From: Cognatishimia maritima
Lineage (GTDB): Bacteria; Pseudomonadota; Alphaproteobacteria; Rhodobacterales; Rhodobacteraceae
NCBI RefSeq assembly: GCF_900129685.1
Contig: NZ_FQWM01000009.1
Span: 1-64,000, forward strand
DNA: 64,000 bases
Reading direction: 5' to 3'
Shown here: positions 11,517 to 52,265 of the stretch, piece after piece
How positions within the stretch are numbered: position 1 is the stretch's first letter
How the letters are laid out: every line of letters begins with the position of its first letter
Position numbers and translations under genes: made by a program
The notes under the pieces: generated by a model
Told to the model about the DNA's origin: nothing
Database searches by the model: none
The model's input: only the letters and a program-made list of their open reading frames with translations

Positions 11517-11963
11517 ATGTCCGCCCCCACCCTCACCCCCAAAGTTGGTGCCATCGCCGTTATCCTGCGTGACGGCCATTTCCTGATGGTGCAACGGGGC
11601 AAGGCGCCCGGCATTGGCCTGTGGGGGTTTCCCGGCGGACACGTTGAACTGGGTGAAACCGCGCAAGAGGCCGCCGTGCGGGAACTTTTTGAGGAAACCA
11701 CCGTCATCGGCACACCGCAGGCCTATTTGACCAATGTCGATGTGATTGGCCGGGATGAGGATGGCGCGATCCTCTATCACTATCTGCTGGCCGTCGTGCC
11801 CTGCACTTATGTTTCAGGCATCCCCAAGGCGGGCGACGACGCGGCAGCAGCAGAATGGGTGCCGGTGCGCGATGTGGTCAACGAGGTCCGCCCCCTCAGT
11901 TGGGGTGTCGCCAAAGTTGCGAAACAGATTGCGGCAAAGCTTAGCGAAGCAACGCAGCCTTAG
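11517..11963 (+). CDS. NUDIX hydrolase
   Basis: A 148-residue NUDIX protein from the ATG at 11517 (weak AAAGG site); the start at 11454 gives a non-family N-terminus. The NUDIX box runs about residues 40-62 as [17 protein letters not shown] then FEETTV: the catalytic RE..EE core is complete, but the usual glycine after EEx is a threonine. The short N-terminal strand ([19 protein letters not shown]) resembles ADP-ribose or ADP-sugar hydrolases. It probably cleaves a nucleoside diphosphate derivative; substrate unknown. Its last codons overlap flhB on the other strand, so the genes converge. Confidence 0.88.
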
Positions 11964-13084
11964 TTCGGATCAGTCCGCAGCTCAGATCCAGTGGGTGGCT
12001 TTCGCTTTGGATCGCGTTTCAGTGCCATCACGAAGCTGATGATTTCCGCCACCACTTCCCAATGTTCAACCGGCACCTGATCGTCGACCTCGATCACGTC
12101 ATAAAGCGTGCGCGCGAGCGGTTTGTTCTCGATAATCGGCACCTCATGTTCATGCGCGATCAAACGGATCTGGCGGGCCATCAAGTCTGCCCCTTTGGCC
12201 ACACAGACCGGCGCAACATCGACGCCCTGTTCATACCGCAATGCCACAGCGTAGTGCGTCGGGTTGGTCAGGATCACATTGGCCGTCGGCACTGCGGTGG
12301 CAATCCGTTGCTGCGCACGTTGGCGTCGCAACTGCGCGCGTTTCCCACGGATCAGGGGATCACCTTCGGCCTCTTTCATCTCATCCCGGATTTCCTTGAC
12401 CGACATCATCTGCTTTCTGCGCCAGTCAAAGCGTTTCCACAGAATGTCGAGAATGGCCACCGGCACCAGAAAAACCGCGGCCATGATCAAAAGCTGTCGC
12501 GTGGCATCTGACATATAGCCCGGCAGATGCTCTGGCACGAACCCCGTGCCCTGCCAGATGTCGCGGACGGCGCTATTTGTCACCCAAAGCGCCATGCCAC
12601 CCACGACCAGAACCTTCACAAGGCTTTTGACAAATTCAACCAGCGTATTGGCCGAGAACTGACGCTTGAGGCCCTCGAAAATGGAAATTTTCGACCATTT
12701 TGGTTTGATCCGCTCAGCAGCGACAACCGTCTCTCCTTGAATCAGAACGCCAACGATACCGCCCAACAGGATCAGCCCAAAAACTGGCGCGATCGCCAGC
12801 ACGATCCGGCTGATGAAATCCCAGAAAACATCGCCCAAAGTCGCAACACCCGGACGTTCAACACCGACATGGATGCGCCCGGCGTTGTCCACCAAGGAGG
12901 CCAAGGCATCCACCAGTTTTGGGCCCTGCCATTGCAAGGCAATCGCCACCACCCCAATCAGCGACACGACAACCATCATATTGCCGGTTTCGCGCGAGGC
13001 AGGGACATCGCCTTTCTTGCGCGCATCGCGCAGCTTCTTCTCGGTCGGCTCCTGGGTCTTGTTGCTTCTGTCTTCTTCTGCCAT
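11960..13084 (-). CDS. flhB: Flagellar export switch protein FlhB
   Basis: 374 residues. The cytoplasmic N-terminus ([20 protein letters not shown]) and four membrane helices (about residues 35-215) are followed by a cytoplasmic domain with the self-cleaving NPTH motif ([14 protein letters not shown], near residue 270). Cleavage at NPTH switches the flagellar type III apparatus from hook to filament export, usually together with FliK. It is the last of a minus-strand run flgB-flgC-fliE-fliQ-sltF-flhA-fliR-flhB. Length and motifs are normal. Confidence 0.96.
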
Positions 13085-13087
13085 CGC

Positions 13088-13843
13088 TCAGAACCTAAAC
13101 AATCCGAACCAGCTGCTGAATTCTCCCAGCCAGTGGTGGATCATGCTAGGCGCTGCGACACCAAGGATAAAGAGACCAACCGCAATCAGCATGGCTGCAG
13201 CGACAAAGAAGACGGGAAGTTGGGGCATCATCCGGTTGGCGAGACCCATGCCAAGGTTCAGGATCACACCCATCACGAAAAACGGCGCAGCGATAGAGGC
13301 CCCAATATAAAGGCTCTTGCTGCCCGCATGAACGATCTGCTTGGCCAGATCACCGGCAAAGATCACACCCGGTGGGAAGACCGCATAGCTTTCCATCATC
13401 CCGCGTAAAATGATGTGATGCGTGTCCGTCACAAAGATCAGGGCAACGGTCGCAATCAACAGCAGCGTCGCAACCAAAGTCGCGCCTTCAAACGAACCGA
13501 GTGACGGCCCAAAGGCATTGGCAAGACCCGACACCTGCCCCACTTGGTAGCCCGCGAAATCCATCGCCGACAGCAGGATACGCGCGGTGACACCAATCCA
13601 AACGCCCACCGTGATCTCAGCCATCAGCAACAGAAACATCGCGGTCGGCGTGTTTGGCGCGCCTGCGACCACCGGCACCACCGGATAAAGCGCCAGACAC
13701 AGGACCAAGGCAAACGACAGCCGTGCGCGCACCGGAATTTGCGCTTCGCCAAATCCCGGCAGGAACATCATCGCGCTGCCAATCCGCCCAACCACCAGCA
13801 AGTAGCCAAACAGCACCGTCGCGATATAGGAGTTCAGGTCCAT
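13088..13843 (-). CDS. fliR: Flagellar export gate protein FliR
   Basis: 251 residues with about six membrane helices. The N-terminus MDLNSYIATVLFGYLLVVGRIGSAMMFLPGF and the segment VGQVSGLANAFGPSLGSFEG are typical FliR. With FliP and FliQ it forms the helical export gate in the MS ring; fliQ is in the window but fliP is not. It is 3 bases from flhA and 3 from flhB, consistent with one transcript. Confidence 0.95.
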   Translation of the reverse strand: MDLNSYIATVLFGYLLVVGRIGSAMMFLPGFGEAQIPVRARLSFALVLCLALYPVVPVVAGAPNTPTAMFLLLMAEITVGVWIGVTARILLSAMDFAGYQVGQVSGLANAFGPSLGSFEGATLVATLLLIATVALIFVTDTHHIILRGMMESYAVFPPGVIFAGDLAKQIVHAGSKSLYIGASIAAPFFVMGVILNLGMGLANRMMPQLPVFFVAAAMLIAVGLFILGVAAPSMIHHWLGEFSSWFGLFRF

Positions 13844-13846
13844 CTC

Positions 13847-15943
13847 TTAGCCGCCAATGGTGGCCACTGTCTTAAGCGAGGCCTTGCGGTGCACTTCATT
13901 GTGGGAAATCACCTGCGTCATCGGGCTGACGCGCTCTAGGATCGAGCGCACATAGGGGCGGCTATCTGGCGCGACCAGCAATGCAGGCCATTGATCCCCG
14001 GCGGCAAACTCTTGAATTTCTTTACGCACGGCCAGCACAAATTCCTGCACCCGTTGCGGCGACATGATGAAATTCGTCTCATCCCCGGTTTTGGAAATCG
14101 CGTTCTGCATCTCAGTTTCCCAGGTCTGGCCCAGCGTCACCACCGGCACATAGCCCTGCGGGTCGACAAGGCTCTGGCAAATCTGTTTGCTCAGTTGCGC
14201 GCGTACATGTTCGACGATGGTCTGCACGTTTTTCGTGGTGCCCGAAGCCTCGGCCACCGCTTCAATGATCTTGGGTAGGTTGCGGATCGACACCCGCTCG
14301 CTCATCAACGCCTGCAAAACATGCTGCATCAGAACCAGCGGCGCGCTGTTGGAAATCTCGGTCAGCAGCTTCTGATAATCTTTGCTTTGCCCGTTCACCA
14401 ACTCTTGCGTGGCGGCGTAGGTCAGCAACTCGGGCATATGCTCTTTGATGATCTCGGTCAGGTGTGTCGTGACGACGCTTTCGGGGTCCACAACCGTCAT
14501 GCCGCGCGCTTCGGCTTCTGACGCGCGGCTTTGGTCGACCCAAATCGCGTTCAGACCAAAAGTCGGTTCGCGCGTGCGCTCTCCGGGGATGTCCACAGCG
14601 GCACCAGAGGGTTCAATCACCATCATCGCACCGGGGCGCAATTCGCCCTTGGCAGTTTCCACACCGTGGATCGAAATCGCGTAACTCATGGCGGGCAGCG
14701 TCGCGTCATCTTTGATGCGCACCGGTGGGATCACAAAGCCATAATCCTTGATGAACAGGTTGCGCAGGCTTTTCACCTTGCCCGGCAGCGCCGCATCAGG
14801 AGAGTTGATCAGCGGCACCAAAGCACTGCCCAGATCAAGCCGCAGATCATCCAGTTTCAGCATTTCTTTGATCGGATCAACCGGCTTTTCTCTTTCCTCC
14901 TTACGGGCGAGCTCATCCGCAACTTGTTTTTTGGCCTGATCCGCAAGTGATCCCTGCATGACGTAGCCCATAACCGCCATGCCCGTTGCAAGGACGGCGA
15001 ACACAACGAAAGGAAACCCCGGCAGGAAACCCACCACAAAACAAAGCGCCGAGGCCATGTAAAGCGCGCGCGGGAAGTTGCCGAGCTGTTTCAGAACCGC
15101 TTCGTTGGTTGCACCCTTTGTGCCGCCCTTCGTGACAAGCAAACCCGCGGCCAAGGACACAACAAGCGCCGGGATTTGGGTCACCAGACCGTCGCCAATC
15201 GTTAGCACCGTATAGTTGCTGGCCGCCTGACCAACCGTCAGATCATAGCTTGCCACGCCAATCAGAATGCCACCGACGACGTTGATGATGGTAATGATCA
15301 GACCGGCAACCGCATCACCACGCACAAACTTTGAGGCACCGTCCATCGCGCCGAAAAAGGCGCTTTCTTCTTCCAGAACCCGGCGACGCTCGCGCGCCTC
15401 GTGTTCATCAATCATGCCCGCGCCAAGGTCCGCATCAATCGCCATCTGTTTGCCCGGCATCGCGTCCAAGCTGAACCGCGCCGCGACTTCGGCGATCCGG
15501 GTCGAACCTTTGGTGATCACGATGAAGTTGATGATCACAAGGATCGAGAAAATCACGATCCCGATGATGAAATCCCCGCCGACAATAAATCGACTGAACC
15601 CTTCGATCACTTTGCCCGCGGCATCCGTCCCAGTGTGCCCCTGGCTGAGGATCAGCCGCGTCGAACTGACGTTCAGCGCCAGCCGCAGCATGGTCACAAC
15701 CAGCAAAAGCGTCGGGAAAGAGTTAAAGTCCAAGGGCGTCGGTATCCACAGCGCCACCATCAGGATCAGCACCGCCAGCGACAGGGAAATTGCCAAGCCG
15801 AAATCCAACAGGATCGGCGGCAATGGCACGAACAACATGCCAAGGATCATCACCACGCCAAGCGCAAAAACCACATCGCGGTTCGCAAGCAACTGCGCGA
15901 AACCGCCGGTAACGTTGGGTGTGTCTGTATTGGACGCGGTCAT
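13847..15943 (-). CDS. flhA: Flagellar export gate protein FlhA
   Basis: 698 residues from the ATG at 15943, six bases after TGAGGA; a 48-codon upstream in-frame extension overlaps sltF and is rejected. About eight N-terminal membrane helices (residues 15-310) include the FHIPEP-family signature region (GSTRIAEVAARFSLDAMPGKQMAID). A cytoplasmic domain (about 320-698) forms the nonameric docking ring for substrates and chaperones. Family length is about 690-700 residues. It couples proton motive force to export. Confidence 0.97.
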   Translation of the reverse strand: MTASNTDTPNVTGGFAQLLANRDVVFALGVVMILGMLFVPLPPILLDFGLAISLSLAVLILMVALWIPTPLDFNSFPTLLLVVTMLRLALNVSSTRLILSQGHTGTDAAGKVIEGFSRFIVGGDFIIGIVIFSILVIINFIVITKGSTRIAEVAARFSLDAMPGKQMAIDADLGAGMIDEHEARERRRVLEEESAFFGAMDGASKFVRGDAVAGLIITIINVVGGILIGVASYDLTVGQAASNYTVLTIGDGLVTQIPALVVSLAAGLLVTKGGTKGATNEAVLKQLGNFPRALYMASALCFVVGFLPGFPFVVFAVLATGMAVMGYVMQGSLADQAKKQVADELARKEEREKPVDPIKEMLKLDDLRLDLGSALVPLINSPDAALPGKVKSLRNLFIKDYGFVIPPVRIKDDATLPAMSYAISIHGVETAKGELRPGAMMVIEPSGAAVDIPGERTREPTFGLNAIWVDQSRASEAEARGMTVVDPESVVTTHLTEIIKEHMPELLTYAATQELVNGQSKDYQKLLTEISNSAPLVLMQHVLQALMSERVSIRNLPKIIEAVAEASGTTKNVQTIVEHVRAQLSKQICQSLVDPQGYVPVVTLGQTWETEMQNAISKTGDETNFIMSPQRVQEFVLAVRKEIQEFAAGDQWPALLVAPDSRPYVRSILERVSPMTQVISHNEVHRKASLKTVATIGG

Positions 15944-15950
15944 ATAGTCC

Positions 15951-16760
15951 TCAGAAAAGTTCTTTGTAGTCCGGCAACATGGGCCGGATTTCAGTGTTAG
16001 AGTAAATCGAATAGCTGCTGCCGTCCGAAACACCCCAGAAAACAGGGGGTGGTGGGTCACGCGGCGCAACGACTTCGGCCACAGCAACCGGCGCGTAAGA
16101 CCGTGCCAAGGCCGTCAGACGATCAATGTCACGCTCGACCACCTTGCGGTTCCGCTCAAGCGACGCCAGATAGCGCGCTTGATGCACATCGGTTGCAGAG
16201 TGATACCGCCCTGCCGCTTTCTGCCAACTGCCGGTTTCCTGATAAAGCCCCAGCAAAAAACGCGCGGCGTAGTCCGCGTTCATCTCGGGATCAAAGGCGG
16301 CTTCTTGGCTTGGGAACTGGTCGCCATGCCAACGCAGATTGATCTGCATACAGCCCACATCGATGCTGGTGATCCCCTGTGCCTGCTTTTCACGCACCCA
16401 ATTCTGGGCGTCCAAACGCGATTTGAAAAACGCGCCCTCGCCGTTGGCATTCACCGTCCATGGCCAAACAGCCAGCCCCGCAGGGCCATTGCGCCCGGCC
16501 TCTTGGATACCGATCGACAGCAACAGATTATCCGGGATGCCGTATTTTTGCTGCGCTTCTAGGATCGCCGCCACACAGCGCGCGCCGGTGGTGGGCCGGT
16601 TTTTTGCGGGCACCTGCACAACTGGCGCTGGCACGGGTGCCGCCGAGGCATAGAGGTTGGTGAAGAGATCGGCCTGCACCGCCGCCGGACCCAGAGCCAA
16701 AGCCGGAGCCAGCAAGCCCGCGACGATCATCCCAAGTGCCTTGCCCCAACCGCGCGCCAT
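15951..16760 (-). CDS. Flagellum-specific lytic transglycosylase, SltF type
   Basis: 269 residues. A signal peptide (about 1-30, ending VQA) precedes an SLT domain (about 60-200). The catalytic glutamate is E87 in LSIGIQEAGRNG, with the later motifs VGCMQINLRW and AARFLLGLYQETGSWQKAAGRYHS. It cuts peptidoglycan so the rod can pass. Here FlgJ has only a rod-binding domain, so a separate enzyme is needed; Rhodobacter sphaeroides uses SltF in this way. Position inside the export operon, between fliQ and flhA, supports the role. The C-terminal tail (about 215-269) is unrelated to the catalytic fold. Confidence 0.85.
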   Translation of the reverse strand: MARGWGKALGMIVAGLLAPALALGPAAVQADLFTNLYASAAPVPAPVVQVPAKNRPTTGARCVAAILEAQQKYGIPDNLLLSIGIQEAGRNGPAGLAVWPWTVNANGEGAFFKSRLDAQNWVREKQAQGITSIDVGCMQINLRWHGDQFPSQEAAFDPEMNADYAARFLLGLYQETGSWQKAAGRYHSATDVHQARYLASLERNRKVVERDIDRLTALARSYAPVAVAEVVAPRDPPPPVFWGVSDGSSYSIYSNTEIRPMLPDYKELF

Positions 16761-16762
16761 AT

Positions 16763-17032
16763 CTAAACGCCCCCGGAGACGATCAGGTCAAAGACCCGAT
16801 CCGACAGTCTGGTCAGCGTGCCAAAGATGAAAGGCAGGGTCAGCGCCAATATCGCAAAGATCGCGATGATCTTAGGCACGAAGGTCAGCGTCATCTCTTG
16901 GATCTGTGTCAGCGCTTGGACAAAAGAAATCACCAAGCCCACCACCAACGCGCCCGCCAAAATCGGCGCGCTGCCCAGAAGTATGGTGTTGATTGTCAGC
17001 CGGATGACCTCATATGCGCCTGTGCTGTCCAT
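16763..17032 (-). CDS. fliQ: Flagellar export gate protein FliQ
   Basis: 89 residues with two membrane helices, the normal FliQ size. The N-terminus MDSTGAYEVIRLTINTILLGSAP and the LIQEMTLTFVPKI-like segment (here ALTQIQEMTLTFVPKIIA) are characteristic. It is part of the FliPQR gate. Gene order fliE-fliQ-sltF-flhA places it in the export operon. Confidence 0.95.
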   Translation of the reverse strand: MDSTGAYEVIRLTINTILLGSAPILAGALVVGLVISFVQALTQIQEMTLTFVPKIIAIFAILALTLPFIFGTLTRLSDRVFDLIVSGGV

Positions 17033-17065
17033 TCGGGCATCCTTAGTAAAAGACGCAAGCGATCC

Positions 17066-17389
17066 TTAGATCGGCATGCGCATGATGTCTTGATAGGCCT
17101 CCACGATCTTATCGCGCACGGCGACAGACACACGCACTGTGCTTTCCATCGTCATGGTCGCCTCGACCACCTGCTGAATGCCCGCCTTGCCGGTCAGGCC
17201 CTGTGTCGCGACCTCATCGCCCTGCCGCACGTTTTCGACAGATTGCGCGGCCGCTGTGCGCAGCATGTCGCCAAAAGACTGCGGTGCGTCAGAGCCTTCC
17301 GCAACCTGCGCCGGGCTTTTCAGGGACTTTGCGTTCCCGTATGCCCCTTGAATGGCGGCATTGGAACGGATCGAAGAAAAATCACTCAT
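17066..17389 (-). CDS. fliE: Flagellar hook-basal body protein FliE
   Basis: 107 residues, the usual FliE length. The C-terminal half (VEATMTMESTVRVSVAVRDKIVEAYQDIMRMPI) carries the conserved helix that links the MS ring or export gate to the rod. It is 9 bases downstream of flgC on the minus strand, in the classical flgB-flgC-fliE order. Confidence 0.95.
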   Translation of the reverse strand: MSDFSSIRSNAAIQGAYGNAKSLKSPAQVAEGSDAPQSFGDMLRTAAAQSVENVRQGDEVATQGLTGKAGIQQVVEATMTMESTVRVSVAVRDKIVEAYQDIMRMPI

Positions 17390-17398
17390 CGTTCAGCC

Positions 17399-17809
17399 CT
17401 ATTCTATCATGTCAATCAAACGGTTCCGCATCTGGCGGGCGTTTTCCAGCATCGTCAGGTTCGCCTCATACGACCGGCTCGCCTCTCGCATGTTGCTCAT
17501 CTCGATCAGCGGGTTCACGTTTGGCATTTTCACATAGCCCGCATCATCCGCTGCCGGATGGGATGGCTCATAGCGCACAGTGAAATCTGTCAAGTCGCGA
17601 TCAATATCGACGATCTCTACCTGCGACACACCGCTGCCGTCATCAATCAACTCACCAAAGCTGATGGTCTTGCGGCGATACGGATCACCGCCGGGCGTGT
17701 CTGCGGTGGAGTTCGCATTGGCGACGTTTTCAGACACCACCCGCATGCGCTCACCCTGCGCCCGAAGGCCGCTGGTGGCAATCTTTCCGATGAGGCTGAG
17801 GCTATCCAT
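17399..17809 (-). CDS. flgC: Flagellar proximal rod protein FlgC
   Basis: 136 residues. The N-terminal rod motif (SGLRAQGERMRVVSENVANANSTA) and C-terminal segment (MSNMREASRSYEANLTMLENARQMRNRLIDMI) are those of FlgC. It is exported through the type III gate and polymerises in the rod. It lies 11 bases from flgB. Confidence 0.96.
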   Translation of the reverse strand: MDSLSLIGKIATSGLRAQGERMRVVSENVANANSTADTPGGDPYRRKTISFGELIDDGSGVSQVEIVDIDRDLTDFTVRYEPSHPAADDAGYVKMPNVNPLIEMSNMREASRSYEANLTMLENARQMRNRLIDMIE

Positions 17810-17820
17810 TTATCTGCCCC

Positions 17821-18168
17821 CTACCCTGACACGGCGCGCAGCATCTCATGTGCTTTGCGATACAGGTTGGCGGCAATCTTGTACTGACCCGCGGTGGAAC
17901 TCGCTTCGAGGATCTGCTCCTCAAGGATCACATTGTTGCCTGACAGGTCCGCGCCCCATGTGGATTCGCTTTCAAAGATAGCGGCGCCTGGCGCTTCGGC
18001 TTGTCCCGCAGCCACCTCAAGATAGGAATCAAAACTCTCGACTTCTTTCGCGCGATACCCCGCCGTATCGGCGTTCGCGATGTTTTCGGACACCACTTTC
18101 TGCCGGTCGGACAACCACTTGAGTCTTTGCGATGCAAGCTCAAATAGATTTGTCACTTCGATATTCAT
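17821..18168 (-). CDS. flgB: Flagellar proximal rod protein FlgB
   Basis: 115 residues from the second of two adjacent ATGs (18168), which has the better spacing to AGGAG; starting at 18171 adds one methionine. The N-terminal motif (SDRQKVVSENIANADTAGYRAKEV) is typical FlgB, and the C-terminus (TAGQYKIAANLYRKAHEMLRAV) matches rod proteins. First gene of the minus-strand rod/export operon, divergent from fliI. Confidence 0.95.
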   Translation of the reverse strand: MNIEVTNLFELASQRLKWLSDRQKVVSENIANADTAGYRAKEVESFDSYLEVAAGQAEAPGAAIFESESTWGADLSGNNVILEEQILEASSTAGQYKIAANLYRKAHEMLRAVSG

Positions 18169-18216
18169 CATGGACTCCTGCGCATTTATTGTTGATTATA
18201 GCAAGTATAACAAAGA

Positions 18217-18231
18217 TTAACATAGGGTTTA
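18217..18231. promoter_or_regulatory. CtrA-like box between flgB and fliI
   Basis: TTAA-N7-TTTA, one mismatch from the CtrA consensus TTAA-N7-TTAA, in the 68-base divergent gap between flgB and fliI. One site could serve both operons. Confidence 0.5.
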
Positions 18232-18236
18232 TTCTT

Positions 18237-19627: not shown

Positions 19628-19712
19628 GATCATCGCTCCTTCAAAGGAGAACTTTATCCAATCAATCGTTACGGAAAGCCTTTGAAGCAGCTTAACCGCT
19701 ATTCCGATTGAA

Positions 19713-20639: not shown

Positions 20640-20668
20640 CGTTTCTTAATAAATCCCTGATTTCGGGG

Positions 20669-42613: not shown

Positions 42614-45600
42614 TTAACCGCGCGCCCGGCGACGTGCTTTCCCACGTCCTGCACCCGAAGGCCGCGCAAATCTTGAAACCACGCCGCGTTCCGCTTCTGG
42701 CGCTTCAACCTGTGTTACCATGACAATCACCGGCAGCGAGTCTGGCAGTTGTCCGCCTGTGACGGGGATGATCGTCATGCAATGGGCCAAGCCCACTTTG
42801 TCAAAATGCAGGATGGCATCAAATTGATCTTCGCCTGCCAGCACCATGGCCTGCGCCGCATCGCCCGCCTGCACCAACGTGACATCATCGGTATCCACAT
42901 GCGGCAAGTCCTTAGAGCCGACCGCCATCAGGCGGAAGCCATCTTCGGTGCTATCCAATGTCGGGATCATGTTCAGCCAATTGCTGTACATATTTGTCCG
43001 CAAGCTGTTCAAGATCGCGCCATCTGACATGTTCATGTCTTCCGACTTGGCCTGCAAGACAGAGACCTTGAGGTTCGACAGCATCTCTTTTTCAAAGAGG
43101 TCTGTTACCAAAGTCCGCCCTTCGTCTGACAGCCAATTAAAGACCGAGGACTGACCAACAACACCCTTGCCGCTGACGACTTGGCTAACGGTCACGCTGC
43201 CGACTTCCAATTCCACTTGAAAGCCGCCCGATTGCAGCTGAGACAGCAGAACCTGCATTTCGGACCCATCAGCAACCTGCGCCGCCGCCTTCGCTGCGAT
43301 TTCCTCGCGCGCCGCAATTTCTGCCGCTGGATCAGTTTCCATCCCTGCCCCGCTGAACATCGCAACTTCGCTGTCGAGCTTTTCAAGCGGCATCAGTTGC
43401 TGGCCGACCAGTCGCGGCAGATCAACGAAGAACTCGGTGCCAATATTATTTTCAGAGGCGAAGAAAATCGCGCCTTTGTGGCTTTCGACAATCATCTTCG
43501 CGATGGCCAGACCAAGCCCAGTGCCGCCTTGGGACCGGGTGTCGCCCATATCGGCTTGGGTAAATTTGTCAAAGATCGTCGCCTGCGCCTCTTTCGGAAT
43601 GCCGGGGCCGAAGTCACGCAATGCAAAGCGCACGCGGCCACGGTGTACCGACAAGGACACGATGATCTCTTTGTCCGCACCCGAGAACTTGGCGGCGTTT
43701 GACATCAGGTTGTCCATGACCTGCAGCAGGCGATCCTTCTCGCCCATGGTCATAAAGCCACCGTCGACCTCTTCCAGATGCAGGCGCATCGTGCATTTGA
43801 ACTTCTCGGCGTAGAACTTGTTGGACTCCATCGCCTGTTCGACCACTTCGAGCATGTCGACCGGCGCAAGTTTCAGGTCCATCTTGCCGTTCTCGAATTT
43901 TTCCATATCGAGAATGTCGTTGATCAGCAGCACCAGCCGGTCGCAGTTATCCGCCGCCATGCCGATCATCTTGTCCATCTGCGGGGTCAGTTCGCCAATC
44001 GCCCCAGATTTCGCCAGACCCAGCGCGCCTTTCATCGAGGTCAGAGGCGTGCGCAATTCGTGGCTGACCGTGGCGACAAATTCGTTTTTGGCTTTCTCGG
44101 CCACTTTGCGCGCGGTGATGTCGCGATAGATCGCGATCAAGCGCGGCTCATCATTGTCGGGCTGGACATATTCCAGCGAAATTTCATATGGCGTGCCGTC
44201 GCCTGCGGTGACCTCCCAGGTCATGCGGCGTTGCGGCCCTTCTTCCAAGGCTTGGCAGCGCATTTCCAAAGCGCGCAGGTCGTTGTCAGTCAGAATGTCC
44301 TTCGCGCTGCGGCCTTTCCACGTGCCACCCACGCGATCCTCGATCAGCTTTTCAGTGGCGGTGCGGTTACAATACAGCAGGTCCAGTGATCCGGGGCGCA
44401 GCACGACCACCTGATCTTCGATCAGTTCCAGACTGTCATGGAAGCTTTCATCGGAAATGCCCTTGCGGGTCTGGGTCATATCGGTGGCGACCACCGCGAT
44501 TTCAGACAGCAGATCACCCGCGCCAGACACAGGAATCACGGTGCACTGCGCCCAAGCCGCAGTGCCATCCTCGCGCAGGATTTTCAGCGGCCCATCCCAC
44601 GGCGCGCCGACCTCCATCGCTTTCATAATATCGTTGCGCAGAATCTCTTGCTCACGCTCTGGCAGCAGGTCAGACAACGGCGTTCCCAAAAGCATCGATC
44701 GTTCGCGATCCGTTGTTGCGCAGAAGCTTTCGTTCACATGCAAAATGCGCCCATCGGGTTTGAGCATACAAAAGACGGTGTGTTCTTCGACCGCGCTGCG
44801 ATAAAAAATCTTTGACCTGATTTCGCTTTCCAGCACGTCCTTCTGTTGCTCGGCCAGCAAAATGTTGCGGCGCAATTGCAGGATCAGGAACAGCAGCGAA
44901 CAAATGATAAAAGTGGTCATCCCAAGGATGGCCCACTTGTAGCTTCTGAAGATCCGCGCGGTGGCCTGCAGCAGGTAATTTTCGTAAGGACGCACGCGCA
45001 GGGAAATCAGAAGGTCGTGCACCTCTTGATAGTTCTGCGGGGCCTGCCACACGACATTGCCGGCGGCGATGGATTCCTCGGCTTCTGCATCAATGCTCAG
45101 CATCGCATTGATGACCAAAGCCAAGGTGTCATTTGGCACCTCTGCATTGGCCGAAAGCACCCATTCAGGATAAAGCGGGGTCGACACCCAAAACGGAAAA
45201 TCCGGGAAGGCCATGGGGGAAAGGGGGACAAAATCGTCCAGATTGATCACACCCTCAGCCGCCAATTGTTCCAGCACACCTGCTGGCACCACGCCCGCAT
45301 CAACAAGTCCGGTCTGCACGGCATAAACCACTTCGCGCTGGTTCCCGCCCGAGAACACCAGCTCGCTTAGCATGTCTTCGACATCCAAACGGCGGCGACG
45401 GAATTCCTGTTCGGCCAGCCACCAGCCGGAAAAATCGCTGGCGGCAACCGCCATTACGCTGGCACCGCGCAACTGGTTGATCTGACGCACCGGGCTATCG
45501 GCGCGCACAAAAATCAGGGCACCGATATCGCTATAGGTCCGCTCCTCCCAGAAACGCGCCCGCGACAACACCGCCCGTGCGCCGCTTTCGACCTCGGCCG

Positions 45601-45964
45601 TGACGTACATCGCCGGGTTCGTCAGCGCGAAATCGACCGCGCCGGTGGCCATGGCTTCGATCAGGGCCGCATGGGAAAACGGCTGCACATTAAAACGATA
45701 TGGGGATTCTGCGAATTGCGCTTCGCGGTTCAGATAGTCAATCGTGGGCCGCCAGGATTCAAGCGCGCGCGTCGCGCCCTCGGTGGAAAGGACCCCCACC
45801 GTGAAAACCTCTGTATCGGCTGAGAACTGTGCCTGCTGAGCATCTGCTGCGGTGGCGCGTGCCAGCAACGCAACTGTCAAAGCGGCGAGTAAGATCCAGA
45901 ACCCGAACCATCGGCGCAGCGCTTTAAGCGCATGCCAAAAGTCTGTGTTATGCGCCATCCACAT
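42614..45964 (-). CDS. Multidomain histidine kinase with PhnD-type periplasmic sensor
   Basis: About 1116 residues from the ATG at 45964, which follows GGAG at four bases; in-frame starts at 45991 and 45979 also exist. A membrane helix (about 16-36) precedes a PhnD/TtrS-like periplasmic binding domain (about 53-320), then a second helix (about 344-364). Two PAS-like segments (about 385-500, 510-620) lead to HisKA with H635 (VSHELRTPL) and HATPase (N-box NLMSNAAKFS, G1 DFGPGIPK, G2 GGTGLGLAIAK). The C-terminal ~220 residues hold a receiver-like half with FDAILHFDKVG but no full acidic pocket. It overlaps the HPt gene by 17 bases. Confidence 0.88.
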   Translation of the reverse strand: MWMAHNTDFWHALKALRRWFGFWILLAALTVALLARATAADAQQAQFSADTEVFTVGVLSTEGATRALESWRPTIDYLNREAQFAESPYRFNVQPFSHAALIEAMATGAVDFALTNPAMYVTAEVESGARAVLSRARFWEERTYSDIGALIFVRADSPVRQINQLRGASVMAVAASDFSGWWLAEQEFRRRRLDVEDMLSELVFSGGNQREVVYAVQTGLVDAGVVPAGVLEQLAAEGVINLDDFVPLSPMAFPDFPFWVSTPLYPEWVLSANAEVPNDTLALVINAMLSIDAEAEESIAAGNVVWQAPQNYQEVHDLLISLRVRPYENYLLQATARIFRSYKWAILGMTTFIICSLLFLILQLRRNILLAEQQKDVLESEIRSKIFYRSAVEEHTVFCMLKPDGRILHVNESFCATTDRERSMLLGTPLSDLLPEREQEILRNDIMKAMEVGAPWDGPLKILREDGTAAWAQCTVIPVSGAGDLLSEIAVVATDMTQTRKGISDESFHDSLELIEDQVVVLRPGSLDLLYCNRTATEKLIEDRVGGTWKGRSAKDILTDNDLRALEMRCQALEEGPQRRMTWEVTAGDGTPYEISLEYVQPDNDEPRLIAIYRDITARKVAEKAKNEFVATVSHELRTPLTSMKGALGLAKSGAIGELTPQMDKMIGMAADNCDRLVLLINDILDMEKFENGKMDLKLAPVDMLEVVEQAMESNKFYAEKFKCTMRLHLEEVDGGFMTMGEKDRLLQVMDNLMSNAAKFSGADKEIIVSLSVHRGRVRFALRDFGPGIPKEAQATIFDKFTQADMGDTRSQGGTGLGLAIAKMIVESHKGAIFFASENNIGTEFFVDLPRLVGQQLMPLEKLDSEVAMFSGAGMETDPAAEIAAREEIAAKAAAQVADGSEMQVLLSQLQSGGFQVELEVGSVTVSQVVSGKGVVGQSSVFNWLSDEGRTLVTDLFEKEMLSNLKVSVLQAKSEDMNMSDGAILNSLRTNMYSNWLNMIPTLDSTEDGFRLMAVGSKDLPHVDTDDVTLVQAGDAAQAMVLAGEDQFDAILHFDKVGLAHCMTIIPVTGGQLPDSLPVIVMVTQVEAPEAERGVVSRFARPSGAGRGKARRRARG

Positions 45965-46322
45965 TCTGCTCCATTTCATCGAGCAGCGCATTCAGAAGAT
46001 CATCGACAAAGTCGGTGTTGAGGGGGCGTTCGCCTGCAAGCAGCGTGTCGATATGCTGTTCCAGCTGCGCCGCCAGGGCCCCCATCCGGGGCTGGCCAAC
46101 GCTGCCGCATATGCCATGCAGCTTATGGGCTTGTGCGCGAATTTCCATGCAGGCGGATTCTTCCGTCTCTGGATCTTCAAGACGTTCTAGGAGTGTGCAG
46201 AAACTTTCGATGCGATCTTCCAAAGACGCGATGAACCGCTCACGAATTTTCGCGAGTCCGGCCTCCAGAAGGGCCGCTTTGTCGGCGTCCATTCCCTGCA
46301 TCATTGTCTGCTCACCCAACAT
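45948..46322 (-). CDS. Histidine phosphotransfer (HPt) protein
   Basis: 124 residues from the ATG at 46322, seven bases after GAGG; the longer TTG start at 46334 would overlap that site. The HPt motif AHKLHGICGSVG gives phospho-accepting H66 in a four-helix bundle. It is co-transcribed with the histidine kinase (overlap of 17 bases) and a CheY-like receiver, giving kinase-HPt-receiver parts of a phosphorelay in one operon. Confidence 0.88.
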   Translation of the reverse strand: MLGEQTMMQGMDADKAALLEAGLAKIRERFIASLEDRIESFCTLLERLEDPETEESACMEIRAQAHKLHGICGSVGQPRMGALAAQLEQHIDTLLAGERPLNTDFVDDLLNALLDEMEQNVDGA

Positions 46323-46414
46323 CTTATTCCTCAACGCTCTTCAGGCGCTGATTTTATTGCCCACTCAGGTTACCACGATTGACGGTGCCTGTGTGGCAAA
46401 ATCAGCCTCGGTCG

Positions 46415-46429
46415 TTAACAAATGGTTAA
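46415..46429. promoter_or_regulatory. Perfect CtrA box upstream of the HPt-kinase operon
   Basis: TTAA-CAAATGG-TTAA, exact consensus, 93 bases upstream of the HPt start; each half is within GTTAAC. Confidence 0.65.
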
Positions 46430-46507
46430 CGTTTTCCATGGTTTACTGTCGTTTTTGGCCATCTGGTGCCCTCTGGACACGAGCCGCGCCACGCAGTTGG
46501 CGCTCGG

Positions 46508-46529
46508 CCGCGGCACTTCTGCGCCGCGG
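46508..46529 (-). terminator. GC-rich hairpin after the GGDEF-like response regulator
   Basis: CCGCGGC and GCCGCGG pair around an 8-base loop 19 bases past the stop codon at 46548; there is no T-run, so termination would be Rho-aided or partial. Confidence 0.4.
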
Positions 46530-46547
46530 GGGGTTCAATGGGTCAGC

Positions 46548-47501
46548 CTAGGCGGCGAAACGGCCGCCCCCCGATCGCGGGCTGCTGGACACCTCGTTCA
46601 GTTTTTCAACCGCGCGATCCAAAAAGCGCAGGTCGCCGCGTTTTTCAAACAGTTTCGGTGCCGCAATTTCGCCGATCTGCGCGGTAAAGCCGGTGGCGAC
46701 CTCTTCGCAATACACAAGATCGGGGTCATTCAGCATCATCACAAATTCATCATGCAGGCTGTCTGCCGTCGGCAATTTGTTCTTCGCCCCAACACAGACA
46801 AAAACCCCACCACCGAGATAAGACAGGAAAGCCTGCGCGCCAACCAGACAATCAGAAATCACCTCAGCCACATCGGTGACCACGTAGGTGAACTCCTCGA
46901 TGTCAGAGCCGGCATGCACCGCCTCAAGTTCTGGCACGCGGATCGCAAAGGCCGCCATGGCAAATTGCTTCTGCTCCAACATCAGCATGACATAGTTATC
47001 CAGCGCAGCACTCTTCACCACGCCGCGCACATCTTTGACGGTGACCGGGTCTTTGAACGGTGGCTTCGGCGCGGCAGCCGTAGCAGCCGGCGCGCTTGCG
47101 GCAGCAGCGGCAGCTTTGCGTGCCTCAGATTGCAGGCGGTCCGCCAAGCGGATGCGCGTCATCAACTCGGTCGTATCAAAAGGCTTGGTCACATAGTCTG
47201 TCGCGCCCGCCATAAAAGCGCGGTCGACATACTCTTTGTTGTTCATCGCGGTGATCATAATCACCGGCGAATTTTTGTAATGCTCCATCTGGCGGACGTG
47301 CTGACACAGTTCCGTCCCGTCCATCCCCGGCATTTGAATGTCGAACATGAAGCCTTCGAACGGCGTCGGCGATGCAGCGATCTTCTGCAAGGCATCTTCG
47401 CCCGATTCCGCCAGGGTCACATCCGTGTACCCATGCGCCTCAAGGGTCGCACTTAGAATTTCGCGGATCAGTTCGTCGTCATCGACGGCAAGGATCTTCA
47501 T
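46548..47501 (-). CDS. Response regulator with degenerate GGDEF-like output domain
   Basis: About 317 residues from the ATG at 47501, six bases after GGAG. The receiver (1-120) is intact: D7-D9 pocket, D54 (FMFDIQMPG), T84-A85 and K106 (VTKPF). An alanine-rich linker (about 125-147) leads to a C-terminal domain (about 160-305). There FLSYLGGGVFVCVG sits where a diguanylate cyclase would have LGGDEF, so GGDEF is GGGVF (229-233). Catalysis is therefore unlikely; a c-di-GMP- or protein-binding role is possible. A perfect CtrA box lies upstream. Confidence 0.85.
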   Translation of the reverse strand: MKILAVDDDELIREILSATLEAHGYTDVTLAESGEDALQKIAASPTPFEGFMFDIQMPGMDGTELCQHVRQMEHYKNSPVIMITAMNNKEYVDRAFMAGATDYVTKPFDTTELMTRIRLADRLQSEARKAAAAAASAPAATAAAPKPPFKDPVTVKDVRGVVKSAALDNYVMLMLEQKQFAMAAFAIRVPELEAVHAGSDIEEFTYVVTDVAEVISDCLVGAQAFLSYLGGGVFVCVGAKNKLPTADSLHDEFVMMLNDPDLVYCEEVATGFTAQIGEIAAPKLFEKRGDLRFLDRAVEKLNEVSSSPRSGGGRFAA

Positions 47502-47959
47502 CTTTTTCTCCAGTCGCGTCACCGCCAAATTGCGGGACATCTAAGCTTCTGCGTCCGTTTGCCAGAGCCCTTGGGTGGGATGCTTCTGCATCGGCCAAAC
47601 CGGCGGGGCTTTGTTAAAGTCTCATTGTTGAAGTTATCAGGACAATTATGGCGCAAATGGGGCAAACTTTTGGATTGAGTGCAGCATTTGCGATTTTCCA
47701 ACTGGGACTGCCTGACACCTCTGGTTTTTAACCCGACTTTAACCTTCAAAAACAGCAGGTTGTCGGTTCTGATTGTTTTTTCATCACTTGTATACAGTGT
47801 AACCTAGGGTTGATCCCTTGCCAAGCAGCGCGTTCTTGCCCGTCAAAGGCGCATTCGCCTGTGATCGATTCCCCACAGTCGTGTCAGTCGGACGTGGTGA
47901 ATTGTCCGCAACTTGGAAACAGTGCCCCAGAATTTATCACGGATCGGGGGTATTTTTTC
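47502..47959. other. Intergenic region between the response regulator and the replication initiator
   Basis: 458 bases with no supported gene. It contains a perfect CtrA box (47728-47742) serving the response regulator, an AT-rich stretch near 47750-47810 with the palindrome TGTATACA, and no obvious terminator for the convergently placed rep gene end. Confidence 0.6.
47728..47742. promoter_or_regulatory. Perfect CtrA box upstream of the GGDEF-like response regulator
   Basis: TTAA-CCCGACT-TTAA, exact consensus, about 227 bases upstream of the ATG at 47501. Confidence 0.6.
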
Positions 47960-49219
47960 CTAGTCGTCAAAAACGCCCGGCACAAGGTCTTCCCAGAAGG
48001 CAAAAATGGCCGAGGAATTCAGCGCAGAATTCCAGCCATGGGCGCGGAATTCCTCGCGTGAAAGGTCGTCGTCCAGCGTCGCCATAAAGAGCCGCTTGTC
48101 CGCATCCCGCTGAGTCGGGTTCCGGCCTGCCACCACATCGGCCACAATAGCAAAGCGCCGCCCGCGCTCGGCCTTGGCCGCACGGCGAGTATCAACCTCT
48201 GATTCTTCCGCGCGCCGCTTCGCCTCGCGCGCCTCCGCCAGCTGCCGCGCGGCCTCTGTTGGTTCAGGCGTTGCCTCGCGCGCTGGCTTGTAATCATCCC
48301 GGATCGCCGCGGTCAGATAGCCGACCTTGGACTTCACCGTGTCCTGGTCAGACATATAAGAGAGCTTTTCCTGCACATAGTCTTCGCCGTGCTCTGCAAT
48401 CCATTGCCGCGCCAGCCGGTCCGAAATCCCCTGCGCAAGCAGCGCTTTATAGACAGGCAGGTTCCGCGTCCCGTCGCTGTCATCAATCTGGAACATGGCA
48501 AGCTGCGGGTTTTCCTTGATCAGAAACCGAATGTCGGTGACCGCCCTGCCCTTTTTCTGAAATTCCGGCGTGATCTCAATATCGCTGCTTTTGTTCACCT
48601 CGGCGACGGCGGGTTTGATGATCTTGGCATTGAGGTGCTTGAAGCTCTCGTAATAGCTCGACCCGTCCACCCCCATCAGTTTGCGGAAGGTATCAAGCGA
48701 CCACCAGCCGGTGCTGCCGGTCCTGACAAAGCGATAACAGTTTTCATAAAGCGCCAGCCCGTGGCCGGAACTGAAGTTCTTTTGGATATGCACATTGATC
48801 AGCGCATAGATTTTCGGGTCATGCAGCTTTTGCGCCAAGGCCGGCGAATAGGCATATTCGCAAATGCCGTTTTTCAGTTTGGCAAAGGACAAAAGCGAAC
48901 TGACGCCCCACTCCTGCTTGCCATCCTCATCCAGCATATCCCACTCGGCCACGGTTTCGGCGAGCGCACGCAGGCTCGCGCGCAGCGTATCAAAATCGTT
49001 GGAGTTATATCCGACCATCATCGCCAACGTCCGCGCATCAATCGAATGGCTTTGGGCAGAGGTCAAAGAGTCATAGGCATTGAGCAAAAGCACGTTGGAG
49101 AGCTTGCGCTGCAGAAGGCTGAGTTTGCCACTGATATGGATCGCGGCCACGTTCTTTTTGACCGTTTCCCGCCGCAATGCGCCGGTCAGTTTATCCATAT
49201 CAATCTGGGTTTGCGCCAT
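47960..49219 (-). CDS. Plasmid replication initiator, Rep_3 family
   Basis: 419 residues from the ATG at 49219; a longer in-frame start at 49339 would run through origin repeats and is less likely. The N-terminal winged-helix domain (about 15-130) has the family-typical AAIHISGKLSLLQRKLSNVLLLNAYDSL. The second winged helix (about 150-250) contains SLDTFRKLMGVDGSSYYESFKHLNAKIIKPAVAEVN. A C-terminal helical region rich in E/R (about 330-390) follows. Rep_3 proteins bind iterons and open the origin. It lies next to an iteron array and parAB, the usual plasmid layout; in Roseobacters this resembles RepB-type rather than RepABC or DnaA-like modules. Confidence 0.85.
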   Translation of the reverse strand: MAQTQIDMDKLTGALRRETVKKNVAAIHISGKLSLLQRKLSNVLLLNAYDSLTSAQSHSIDARTLAMMVGYNSNDFDTLRASLRALAETVAEWDMLDEDGKQEWGVSSLLSFAKLKNGICEYAYSPALAQKLHDPKIYALINVHIQKNFSSGHGLALYENCYRFVRTGSTGWWSLDTFRKLMGVDGSSYYESFKHLNAKIIKPAVAEVNKSSDIEITPEFQKKGRAVTDIRFLIKENPQLAMFQIDDSDGTRNLPVYKALLAQGISDRLARQWIAEHGEDYVQEKLSYMSDQDTVKSKVGYLTAAIRDDYKPAREATPEPTEAARQLAEAREAKRRAEESEVDTRRAAKAERGRRFAIVADVVAGRNPTQRDADKRLFMATLDDDLSREEFRAHGWNSALNSSAIFAFWEDLVPGVFDD

Positions 49220-49486
49220 GATTCTCACTGACTCGATTTTGCCCGAGAGACTGGCATAAATAGGTACCCGAGCGCAATAAATCTCTGGGTTCTTTAACCC
49301 ATCCCGCAAACGGGTACCCAAAGACTCCGCTTGACTCATGGGGTGCGATCTCCCTTCGAATCAGGTGGTCGCTGACCGACTCAGGGAGTCAAAAACGACC
49401 CATTGGCAGGTCCGAAAGCCAGAAATATGGGGCCAAAGCGGCAGAAAACCACCATATCTTGCGGTCTTTTGAACCCACCGGGAATC

Positions 49487-49596
49487 GGTGCCCTTTGTCC
49501 TGCATCTGGGTACCATTGATCCCGTAGCCAGGCACCTTAAGGCCTGTAAACGGGTGCCTTTCGTCCCGGATGCAGGTCCCCAAACTTACTTAACTC
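49487..49596. repeat. Iteron array: five 22-bp repeats
   Basis: Repeat cores start at 49487 (GGTGCC), 49509 (GGTACC), 49531 (GGCACC), 49553 (GGTGCC) and 49575 (GGTCCC), each exactly 22 bases apart. The best units share GGTGCCtTT..GTCC.G.A. The 22-bp period is two helical turns, typical for Rep_3 iterons. Outlying copies occur at 49263 and 49313. Confidence 0.8.
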
Positions 49597-49800: not shown

Positions 49801-49833
49801 TAAACAGGCGAACATAATCAGAGGCAACGAACA

Positions 49834-51210
49834 GTGAGCAAAGCTCCCACACTTCCCCTGCCCCCGTATCTGAACCTCGATCCCAAGGCTGCGGCAGAGA
49901 AGTTACCCGACCCTATCGACACCACACGATTCGCGAAAGCCGCCGCTTTCTGCGCCAAGGGACGTGCCGACATGGCGCGTCGTGGCTATGCGCCGGATGG
50001 ACAAAAGAGGTTGCGGAAATTCTCGATCTGGGAGATCACCAAATACCTGATCCCCATCGCCCCGGCCCATCTGCGCCGTGTCTTGAAGGCCAACCCAGAC
50101 TTGCCCCAGGGCGAAGGCGTCGGTGGCTCAAAATGGTTCACTTTGGAAGAGGTCCTGGTGCTTCGCCATTACTTTCACCAAGAGGGCGTCAGCACCAAAG
50201 AATACCTGCCCTACCGGCCCGAGGGCTTGCCTGCCAAGGTGGTGGCCGTCGCGAACTTCAAAGGCGGGGTTGGCAAGACATCTACGGCCGCGCATTTGGC
50301 CATGTCGGCGGCGCTGGATGGATACAAGGTTCTGGTCATTGATCTGGACTCTCAGGGGTCCATGACCTCAATCCTTGGTGGCAAGGTGCCGGATGAATGG
50401 AGCACCGTCTTCCCGCTGATTGCCAAGGATTACGCCAAGGCCGTGGTTGCTGAAAACGAAGTGCGCGCCGCAGGTGGGCAGCCCGAGATCGCCTTGGATG
50501 AAACCCTGAAGGAAGCGCTTGGGGTGACATCCAAAGATGTGATCCAGAAAACCCATTGGCCGAACATCGACCTGATCGGGGCGCAGCTTAATCTCTATTG
50601 GGCCGAGTTCCAGATCCCTGTTTGGCGCATGGGTCTACGCAACTGGCCGCTGTGGGATGGCCTGACCAATTTCTTGGAAGATGAAGGCGTGTTGGATAAA
50701 TACGACATCGTCTTCCTCGATACGCCCCCTGCCCTCGGTTATCTGACGATCAATGGTTTGGCGGCAGCTGATATCTTGCTTGTCCCTCTTGGGGCATCGT
50801 TTCTGGAGTTTGATTCCACTGGGCGCTTCTTTGACATGCTCTATTCGACATTTGCCAGCATCGAAGACGGTGAAAACACTGCCGCGCGGGCGGCGGGTTT
50901 ACCGGAACTTAAGTTTGAATGGGATGTAGTGAGGGCGATTGTCACCCGCTTTGACGCCAGCCAGCAGACCGATATGGCAAATGTGATCCAGGCCTATTTT
51001 GGCGATTTTATGAATGCCTACCGGCAGGACTACACGGCTTTGGTGGGCCAGGCTGGCGAACAGGTGAACGGGATTTATGAAGCGGACTACCGCGACTTCA
51101 ATCGAGATACCTATGTGCGTGGTCGGGAAACTTTTGATCGCACCTACGCGGAGTTCAAAGAGCTGCTGATTGGAAGCTGGTGGCGCGATACGCAGATGGA
51201 GGACAAGTGA
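49834..51210 (+). CDS. parA: Plasmid partition ATPase ParA (type Ia)
   Basis: 458 residues from a GTG start. An N-terminal ~130-residue extension with a DNA-binding-type helix-turn-helix region (FSIWEITKYLIPIAP... EEVLVLRHYF) marks a type Ia ParA able to repress its own promoter. The deviant Walker A is NFKGGVGKTS (141-150), followed by VIDLDSQGSMTS and DIVFLDTPPALGYLTING. It positions plasmid copies with ParB. The stop codon overlaps the ParB start. Confidence 0.93.
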   Translation: MSKAPTLPLPPYLNLDPKAAAEKLPDPIDTTRFAKAAAFCAKGRADMARRGYAPDGQKRLRKFSIWEITKYLIPIAPAHLRRVLKANPDLPQGEGVGGSKWFTLEEVLVLRHYFHQEGVSTKEYLPYRPEGLPAKVVAVANFKGGVGKTSTAAHLAMSAALDGYKVLVIDLDSQGSMTSILGGKVPDEWSTVFPLIAKDYAKAVVAENEVRAAGGQPEIALDETLKEALGVTSKDVIQKTHWPNIDLIGAQLNLYWAEFQIPVWRMGLRNWPLWDGLTNFLEDEGVLDKYDIVFLDTPPALGYLTINGLAAADILLVPLGASFLEFDSTGRFFDMLYSTFASIEDGENTAARAAGLPELKFEWDVVRAIVTRFDASQQTDMANVIQAYFGDFMNAYRQDYTALVGQAGEQVNGIYEADYRDFNRDTYVRGRETFDRTYAEFKELLIGSWWRDTQMEDK

Positions 51211-52265
51211 TGGCAAAACGCAGACGTTTGGTGGCACCGGATCAATCAGAACTCGAGAGGCTTGATGAGGGTTTCGCCGCGAAACCGCCTTTGGGGAGCG
51301 GGATGGCGCCGCCAATTGCACAGGTTGCCGGAGAGGCTGCCGCGCTTGGCGGAATGGCGGGTGTTAGTGATCGGGTGGCCGCAGCCAGAGATAGCGCCGA
51401 TGCGGAGAAATGGCGGTCGGCCGAACAAGAAGGGCGTGCAATAGAATCGATTCCGCTTGCAGACATTCAAGCAGATTACCTGCGTCGCGACCGCATAGAA
51501 GACACCGTTGAAGCGCGCGAGGAGTTGTTGAATTCCATCCGGCAAAATGGCTTGCGCGCCCCGATCGAGGTGGTTGCGCTGGCAGAGGGCTATGGGCTGA
51601 TTGCCGGGCATCGTCGACTGGACGCTTTCAAAACGCTGGCAGGGCAAGATCCGCAATTTGCGCGTATTCCCGCCTTTCTGCGTCGCCCTGCGGATAGTGC
51701 CGATGCCTACGTTAACATGGTCGAAGAAAACGAAGTCCGGGCCAATCTTTCGCACTATGAACGCGGGCGGATTGCGGTGGTTTCGGCACAAAGTGGGGTG
51801 TTTGAGACGGTTGAAGAGGCCATCAATCGGTTGTTCGAACACGGGTCGAAATCTAAACGCTCTAAGATTCGCAGTTTTGCGGCTGTACATGAAGCCTTGG
51901 GGGATTTGTTGCAGTTTCCGAAGGAGCTGACTGAGCGCACCGGGCTCAAGGTGGCCGCGGCGCTGCGGGGTGGGGCGCAGCCTCGGCTGCGGGCGGCACT
52001 GGCAGATCAAAGTGCTTTGACCGCCCAGCAGGAAATGCAGGCGCTAGAGCGAGCGATTGAAGATCAGGGACCGCTTGAAAAGGAACCCTCTCGGGGTGGC
52101 CGGCCGAATGAATATCACAGGCTGCCGGCAGTTCCGTTGGAGGGCGGCGGGAGCCTCTCTGTGCAGTTCGGAATAAATGGCATGCGCTTGGAGGTGAAGG
52201 GCAGGGAGGTTCCGCAGGACCTTGCCGATGAGACATTGGCGCAGGTCAAAGCCTTGCTCGGCTAG
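51210..52265 (+). CDS. parB: Plasmid partition protein ParB
   Basis: 351 residues from the ATG at 51210, overlapping the parA stop (TGATG) with GGAGG eight bases upstream. The ParB N-terminal nuclease-like/CTPase domain (about 85-180) includes the box as IAGHRRLDAF (GHRR in place of the usual GERR) and VEENEVRANLSHYERG. A helix-turn-helix region follows (about 190-250). A perfect inverted repeat resembling a parS half-site pair lies inside its 5' end. Confidence 0.9.
   Translation: MAKRRRLVAPDQSELERLDEGFAAKPPLGSGMAPPIAQVAGEAAALGGMAGVSDRVAAARDSADAEKWRSAEQEGRAIESIPLADIQADYLRRDRIEDTVEAREELLNSIRQNGLRAPIEVVALAEGYGLIAGHRRLDAFKTLAGQDPQFARIPAFLRRPADSADAYVNMVEENEVRANLSHYERGRIAVVSAQSGVFETVEEAINRLFEHGSKSKRSKIRSFAAVHEALGDLLQFPKELTERTGLKVAAALRGGAQPRLRAALADQSALTAQQEMQALERAIEDQGPLEKEPSRGGRPNEYHRLPAVPLEGGGSLSVQFGINGMRLEVKGREVPQDLADETLAQVKALLG
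51270..51286. promoter_or_regulatory. Inverted repeat inside parB, parS-like
   Basis: GGTTTCG and CGAAACC flank a three-base centre. The GTTTC/GAAAC half-sites recall the chromosomal parS arms, but centre length and context differ, and the RepABC-type 16-bp parS pattern is not met. Confidence 0.35.

Follow-up and report, generated by a model that had tools for sequence, protein, structure and literature searches.

Contig C6 of the Cognatishimia maritima genome (NZ_FQWM01000009.1; 136,296 bp of 3.28 Mb in 14 contigs) carries a large flagellar gene set next to a plasmid-type replication and partitioning module. The window analysed here is its first 64,000 bp (C6:1-64000). With a probability of about 0.93, C6 can be read from its sequence as a closed circular 136,201-bp flagellar plasmid of the fla2 type, chromid-like and of the RepB/Rep_3-ParAB kind. 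Its plasmid-type replication genes are combined with a G+C content close to that of the chromosome: 56.7% in C6, compared with 56.6% in C3 (8 stretches of 20 kb out of about 51) and 56.7% in C10 (5 of about 31). From C9, C11 and C13, one sample of 20 kb each gave 56.7%, 55.4% and 58.1%, respectively.

The first 95 bp of C6 are identical to the last 95 bp. Closing the contig at this overlap yields the 136,201-bp circle and restores an uninterrupted gene of 332 aa across the junction, which is labelled ABC-ATPase-like from the context of neighbouring transporter-type genes. When the 28 ends of the 14 contigs were compared, an end-to-start join of 95 bp was found at C6 alone; the start of C13 matches itself at all lengths, appears to be a masked run and leaves that contig not judgeable. 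Overlaps reaching 95 bp or more were otherwise seen four times, always between the 5.8-kb contig C5 and ends of C3, C4 and C14, and a match over 20 bp between the ends of C7 may be due to chance. The 25-bp end words of C6 occur, on the plus strand that was searched, only at its own two ends, and the 95-bp end comparison linked these ends to no other contig. In the relative G005, the genes from both sides of the junction (g130-g134 and g0-g2; g-numbers denote the called genes of C6) lie in one run at 231-239 kb of a single contig, with g134 and g0 adjacent. The genes were called with a simple script of our own, and some of the small open reading frames (ORFs) may be wrong. Exact end overlaps of 77 bp were found in contigs of G006 and G008, and two relatives whose module is placed as in C6 close into circles of about 99 and 113 kb.

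The module begins, on its rep side, 419 bp beyond the last regulator of the flagellar block. The Rep_3 initiator of RepB type (47960..49219, minus strand) contains the N- and C-terminal Rep_3 domains (PF01051, PF21205; E-values 5.9e-19 and 1.7e-16) and is the sole Rep_3 match in the genome. Its reading frame is open to 49339, and the start at 49219 is the most likely one, because relatives from Phaeobacter align from residue 41, the stretch upstream of 49219 is occupied by iterons, and stops lie inside the longer match in two relatives. It is 73.1% identical over residues 41-458 to the Rep protein of pPGA1_78, a RepB-I replicon. This single reference suggests that the Rep of C6 may also belong to RepB-I, a label taken from PMC4062626, PMC4148982 and PMC9025767. 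The iteron array (49260..49575) holds six iteron-like GG(T/C)(A/G)CC cores between 49263 and 49558, of which four (49487, 49509, 49531 and 49553) are spaced exactly 22 bp and two (49263 and 49313) are nearer to rep. The iteron stretch aligns in all six replicons, i.e. C6 and those of five relatives. Next to it on the plus strand lie parA (49834..51210; AAA_31, E 4.4e-30; 93-95% identity in five relatives) and parB (51210..52265; ParB_N, E 1.1e-07; 60-74% identity in five relatives), so that a RepB/Rep_3 replicase is accompanied by parAB. The earlier note had described initiator, iterons, parA and parB as adjoining the flagellar cluster, and the Pfam domains, repeats, skew minimum and alignment in 6/6 replicons bear this out. 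Its distance of 2 kb from the regulator holds for rep and approximately for the iterons (1.7-2.0 kb), but is exceeded by parA (2.3 kb) and parB (3.7 kb).

A parS-like palindrome, GTTTCGCCGCGAAAC, is located at 51271..51285, inside the 5′ part of parB. The palindrome GTTTCGCNGCGAAAC has one site in the window; with one mismatch at most, 5 of 100 shuffles also gave at least one match, so that the site alone is a weak signal. Over the six replicons 17 exact copies were counted, 14 of which lie within parAB or adjacent to it; 160 kb of the relative G002 contained no exact copy. We propose that GTTTCGCNGCGAAAC may serve as parS. The cumulative GC-skew minimum of C6 lies 516 bp from the gap between rep and parA. 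In all five replicons of the skew set (three closed circles and two open contigs, with the gap positions of the relatives taken from tblastn) the minimum falls 376-1299 bp from this gap, and the skew amplitude was reached in 0/1000 shuffles of 1-kb blocks for each replicon. At third codon positions the strand difference in C6 is +0.26 for block A and -0.28 for the other arm. Arm skews of opposite sign, with intervals excluding zero, were seen in four of the five replicons (C6, G005, G006 and G008; G001 was outside this set), while in G007 block A has no arm skew (0.03) and one arm only shows it.

The flagellar genes are arranged in two blocks, and the origin segment sits between them. Block A (11960..47540) comprises 37 called ORFs from flhB to a response regulator, identified by NCBIfam and Pfam matches together with gene order: flhB, fliR, flhA, an SLT gene, fliQ, fliE, flgC, flgB, fliI, flagellin, flgI, flgL, flgK, flgE, flgF, flgG, flgA, flgH, flgD, fliK, a mucR-type regulator, motB, motA and two-component genes. 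Several NCBIfam scores (e.g. FlhB, FliR, FliI and FlgL) are under the curated equivalog cut-offs. The flhA gene (13847..15943, minus strand) is above its cut-off (TIGR01398, E 1.2e-257). The ORFs at 21166-21459 and 35298-35996 gave no Pfam match, and their labels as rod-binding protein and sigma factor are by position only. Block B (C6:72693-83297) lies outside the window and contains a response regulator, flaF, flbT, a DUF1217 gene, fliG, fliP, fliN, fliH, fliF, fliL, fliM and two ORFs without a Pfam match. The cluster had been described in the earlier note as 30 kb long; block A alone spans about 35.6 kb, and block B comes in addition. Genes for export, basal body, hook, filament and motor are thus all present. 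The FlhA protein is 67.7% identical to that of pMaD5, the fla2 reference plasmid of Marinovum algicola DG898, and its best plasmid matches are from Sulfitobacter (71-72%); the assignment to fla2 follows this closeness, fla1 and fla3 references being outside the direct comparison. Absence of the fla1-only proteins CP1-4 is reported as a feature of fla2 (PMC12363192). The single FlhA match in the genome is the copy on C6, and the flagellar genes therefore follow this replicon, as had been proposed. Between the blocks, one side is occupied by rep/parAB, a cluster of ECF (extracytoplasmic function) sigma, ChrR-type and CMAS genes, the genes for glyceraldehyde-3-phosphate dehydrogenase (GAPDH) and monomeric isocitrate dehydrogenase (IDH), and the other side by a variable accessory region. 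The blocks are joined at flhB in the Sulfitobacter plasmids, in the outgroups G146 and G052 and in G007, so the split at flhB in C6 is probably secondary. The gene order of block A is common to the annotated Sulfitobacter flagellar plasmids.

At the origin-side edge of block A, Pfam identified a response regulator, a histidine kinase with a phosphonate-binding-type sensor and an Hpt protein (42186..46322, minus strand), followed by the edge response regulator (46548..47540, minus strand; Response_reg, E 1.3e-28). Homologs of the latter are 87-93% identical in the six related genomes that have this FlhA. The kinase (window:42614-45958), with its phosphonate-binding-type periplasmic domain, adjoins motA and a single-domain response regulator; possibly it is a sensor acting on the fla2 motor. 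A box of the form TTAA-N7-TTAA, which we take to be the CtrA consensus, is found at 47728..47742, 188 bp upstream of the edge regulator. C6 contains six such sites, whereas 30 mononucleotide shuffles had 0.5 on average and never more than 2; dinucleotide shuffles would be the stricter control. Five of the six precede genes of the flagellar blocks and the sixth precedes g60, and by eye the box is present upstream of the regulator in all seven sequences compared. ChpT, a protein of the CtrA phosphorelay, is encoded on contig C3. Control of the regulator by CtrA, as had been assumed earlier, would be consistent with the box and with the number of sites in C6.

The comparison covered nine genomes of one genus, probably Cognatishimia (G000 is the genome of the window; G001-G008 are its relatives). 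FlhA relatives at 81-89% identity were found in six genomes besides G000, and no FlhA of this kind in G003 and in the fragmented G004. Rep is present at 85-86% identity in five genomes besides G000 and lies on the same contig as FlhA in all six. Weak Rep matches (26-35%) occur in G004, G006 and G007 and a short fragment in G001, and the whole genomes of G002 and G003 gave no Rep match. G003 lacks this FlhA, this Rep and the IDH of the replicon together, as loss of the replicon would give. The module abuts the regulator in five of the six replicons; in G001 the segment from rep to g62 is inverted, yet lies between the blocks, as read from a possibly open contig that holds 654 N. Within the genus, the replicon is old. 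A second, distant FlhA (39%) was observed at G006:C15:133950 and G007:C2:77347, the latter copy with one in-frame TGA. A family-wide FlhA search at E<=1e-200 matched 13 of 295 genomes, G000 included. Among 80 loci retained from 152 Rep relatives, many with short flanks, four had flagellar-block genes nearby (45% identity, 60% coverage), and these four loci are, to judge by length, the contigs of G001, G005, G006 and G008. The outgroups G146 and G052 have FlhA proteins of 79 and 78% identity and a contiguous flagellar cluster, and the stretches of them that were compared contain no match to this rep/parAB, to g51-g58 or to g66.

An alternative is that rep and parAB are the remnant of a plasmid integrated into the chromosome beside a chromosomal flagellar cluster. 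For Sulfitobacter, a different plasmid that carries no flagellar genes is reported to have integrated into a chromosome (PMC13386836), and in G002 the gene block is chromosomal, though it is devoid of rep/parAB. However, C6 closes as its own circle, closing completes a gene, the order at the junction is matched in G005, and the skew switches at rep/parA, as seen in both arms; hence C6 is not a chromosomal remnant, and with the two circular relatives that carry the module in the same place this explanation was rejected as very improbable. Neither a chromosomal location nor an integrated remnant, the outcomes that the earlier note had set against its own reading, was found when checked by sequence: C6 closes alone, and its rep/par genes are not flanked by chromosome. 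The circle could also be an artefact of assembly arising from a repeat at both contig ends. Overlaps of 95 bp do occur at repeats in this assembly, where C4 overlaps, at either end, with one end of C5. The end words of C6, in contrast, are on the plus strand unique to its two ends, these ends link to no other contig, and the gene across the junction is intact with its flanking genes adjacent in G005; the artefact was likewise discarded, as having only a very small chance of being true.

A closed, chromid-like flagellar plasmid is thus the reading retained for C6, and some points weigh against it. The circularity of C6 is deduced from the assembly overlap, the restored gene and the gene order of one relative, and an exact end overlap is absent in the contigs of G001, G005 and G007 (for G005, 120 of 264 kb were compared). 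The chromid status is putative, as G003 lives without the IDH of the replicon. For Rep, the palindrome and the CtrA boxes the functions given here are predicted, as is motility itself. Trees of plasmid genes and chromosome genes disagree on G006, G007 and G008, and inheritance is therefore not necessarily strictly vertical.

In G002, a genome of one contig (3,252,335 bp), the order is g47-to-g11 at 1340-1380 kb, 8 kb of other genes, g80-to-g68, the IDH gene and g58-to-g51 (to 1406.7 kb). In this one assembly, the block corresponds to the plasmid circle opened at rep/parAB and lacking rep/parAB. In the 160 kb of G002 that were searched, tblastn gave no remnant of Rep, ParA or ParB (lowest E 0.11). 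To the left of the block there are 18 kb, then tRNA-Thr and hemY of the shared backbone. Within these 18 kb, genes 31-43 had no counterpart in the compared stretches, and the match of gene 44 in G003 is at another location. On the right-hand side, genes 112-117 match genes near hemY in G003 as well as g86-g91 of C6, and genes 120-123 have their matches elsewhere in G000, G003, G005, G006 and G007. The next conserved backbone gene of G002 lies about 199 kb away on the other side of hemY, showing that the chromosome is rearranged. The place beyond hemY varies (L163:12041-12116): in G006 the next conserved gene follows after about 1 kb, in G003 after 19 kb, and G000 and G002 have other genes there. 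A tRNA-Thr(CGT) follows hemY in G000 and G002; the G006 stretch gave none (L169, L184 and L188 were outside the scan).

The direction of the switch can be read in two ways. The chromosome may have been the original home of the fla2 block, which a RepB plasmid then captured at the g47/g51 junction; we regard this order as a tentative but serious possibility. The flagellar gene cluster tree, built on 20 of 21 chosen proteins (g32 was left out for want of a G001 match covering 60%), places G002 as sister to all plasmid copies, a position from which either direction costs one event, and block A of G002 is without the plasmid-like arm skew (difference 0.03, interval -0.04 to 0.10). A weak plasmid-like skew is nevertheless kept in the other arm of G002 (-0.10, interval -0.23 to -0.01). 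The location of the block 18 kb beyond hemY, in a place of variable content and with right-hand neighbours that are hemY-side genes in G003, has the look of an insertion; the block is opened at the very module that a replicon would need to shed on integration, and in Sulfitobacter and Marinovum the fla2-like clusters are plasmid-borne. An unrooted tree of the hemY region (8 genomes, 12 proteins) joins G002 and G008 at 0.972, contains a support of 0.458 and decides nothing. Slightly better odds are given to a plasmid that came first and was integrated in G002 with loss of rep/parAB.

Beyond parB follows a conserved segment (52373..57476) with genes for a DUF3833 protein, a CMAS-type methyltransferase, an amine oxidase, an ECF sigma factor and a ChrR-type cupin protein. 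This group presumably resembles the singlet-oxygen group rpoE-chrR-cfa. It is kept in 6/6 related genomes with this FlhA, G001 giving no match for its first and third gene, and the GAPDH gene (59221..60222, minus strand) is part of the same conserved segment. A monomeric IDH (L002:4608-6842) is also encoded on the flagellar replicon. In six of the nine genomes it is found only on this replicon; in G002 it lies in the chromosomal block, with one TAA counted inside the match, in G004 a partial copy is on a 3.1-kb contig, and the genome of G003 gave no match. Further ParA-type ATPases are encoded on C7 (two) and C12 (L034, L035, L036) and could be signs of further extrachromosomal replicons.

In Rhodobacterales, flagellar plasmids have already been published, among them some of RepB type (PMC12363192, PMC13386836), in line with what the earlier note had stated for some Roseobacters. 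According to PMC12363192 and its preprint PMC11974857, 21 of 43 fla2 clusters are plasmid-borne, the plasmids being of DnaA-like, RepB and RepABC types, and a link with the cell pole is suggested as a possible cause; the RepB plasmids with fla2 described there by Tomasch et al. 2025 are of the same kind as C6. Neither Cognatishimia nor Thalassobius is mentioned in the main text of PMC12363192, whose taxa stand in the supplements. Sulfitobacter flagellar plasmids with the sole cluster, among them conserved 92-kb plasmids of Sulfitobacter mediterraneus, are reported in PMC13386836. The 92-kb plasmid P3 of S. mediterraneus (NZ_CP069007) is fla2-like and shares with C6 the regulator-Hpt-kinase-motA edge and a parB-parA-rep set beyond the regulator; it differs in that its cluster is contiguous, about 14 kb separate the regulator from the start of parB, the best ParA match is 31% and no Rep match was found at E 1e-8. 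The pMaD5 chromid (CP010860; 143 kb), source of the fla2 reference, is similar to C6 in size and belongs to a species for which a fla2 chromid with strain-specific motility is described (PMC12843797); its gene order differs, and the stretches read (30-56 and 98-120 kb) have no annotated replication gene. Phaeobacter inhibens pPGA1_78 (NC_018287) is of RepB type like C6, but carries siderophore genes (PMC4062626) and no flagellar gene in the 6 kb read. A literature search, for which supplements were out of reach, retrieved no report of a replication module between two flagellar blocks or of a chromosomal version opened at the replication module. What this work newly adds is the position of the origin between the blocks, together with the permuted copy in a chromosome.

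Taken together, the domains, repeats and skew suggest that Rep would bind the iterons between rep and parA and start bidirectional replication there, and that ParA, with ParB acting on GTTTCGCNGCGAAAC sites, would partition the replicon as in low-copy plasmids. The two blocks flanking the origin segment include what the searches identify as the only flagellar export gate of the cell. The CtrA relay of the host probably switches these blocks on, and swimming would be inherited with the replicon and lost with it. It is conceivable, though unlikely, that the position of the origin and parS-like sites between the blocks is itself functional, ParAB holding the origin near the cell pole. Flagellar genes on both arms would then be transcribed, translated and inserted at the pole, a transertion idea discussed in PMC12363192, with the dosage of early-replicated genes, and the species with the chromosomal block would be a natural experiment on the absence of such an arrangement.

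The genus, probably Cognatishimia, thus offers a genus-wide case of a fla2 set tied to one RepB-type replicon. Three states are found in it: the set on the replicon (6/9 genomes), no such FlhA (G003 and the fragmented G004), and a chromosomal set without rep/parAB (G002). The reason why fla2 is so often on plasmids, be it transfer or the location and dosage near an origin, becomes testable inside one genus.

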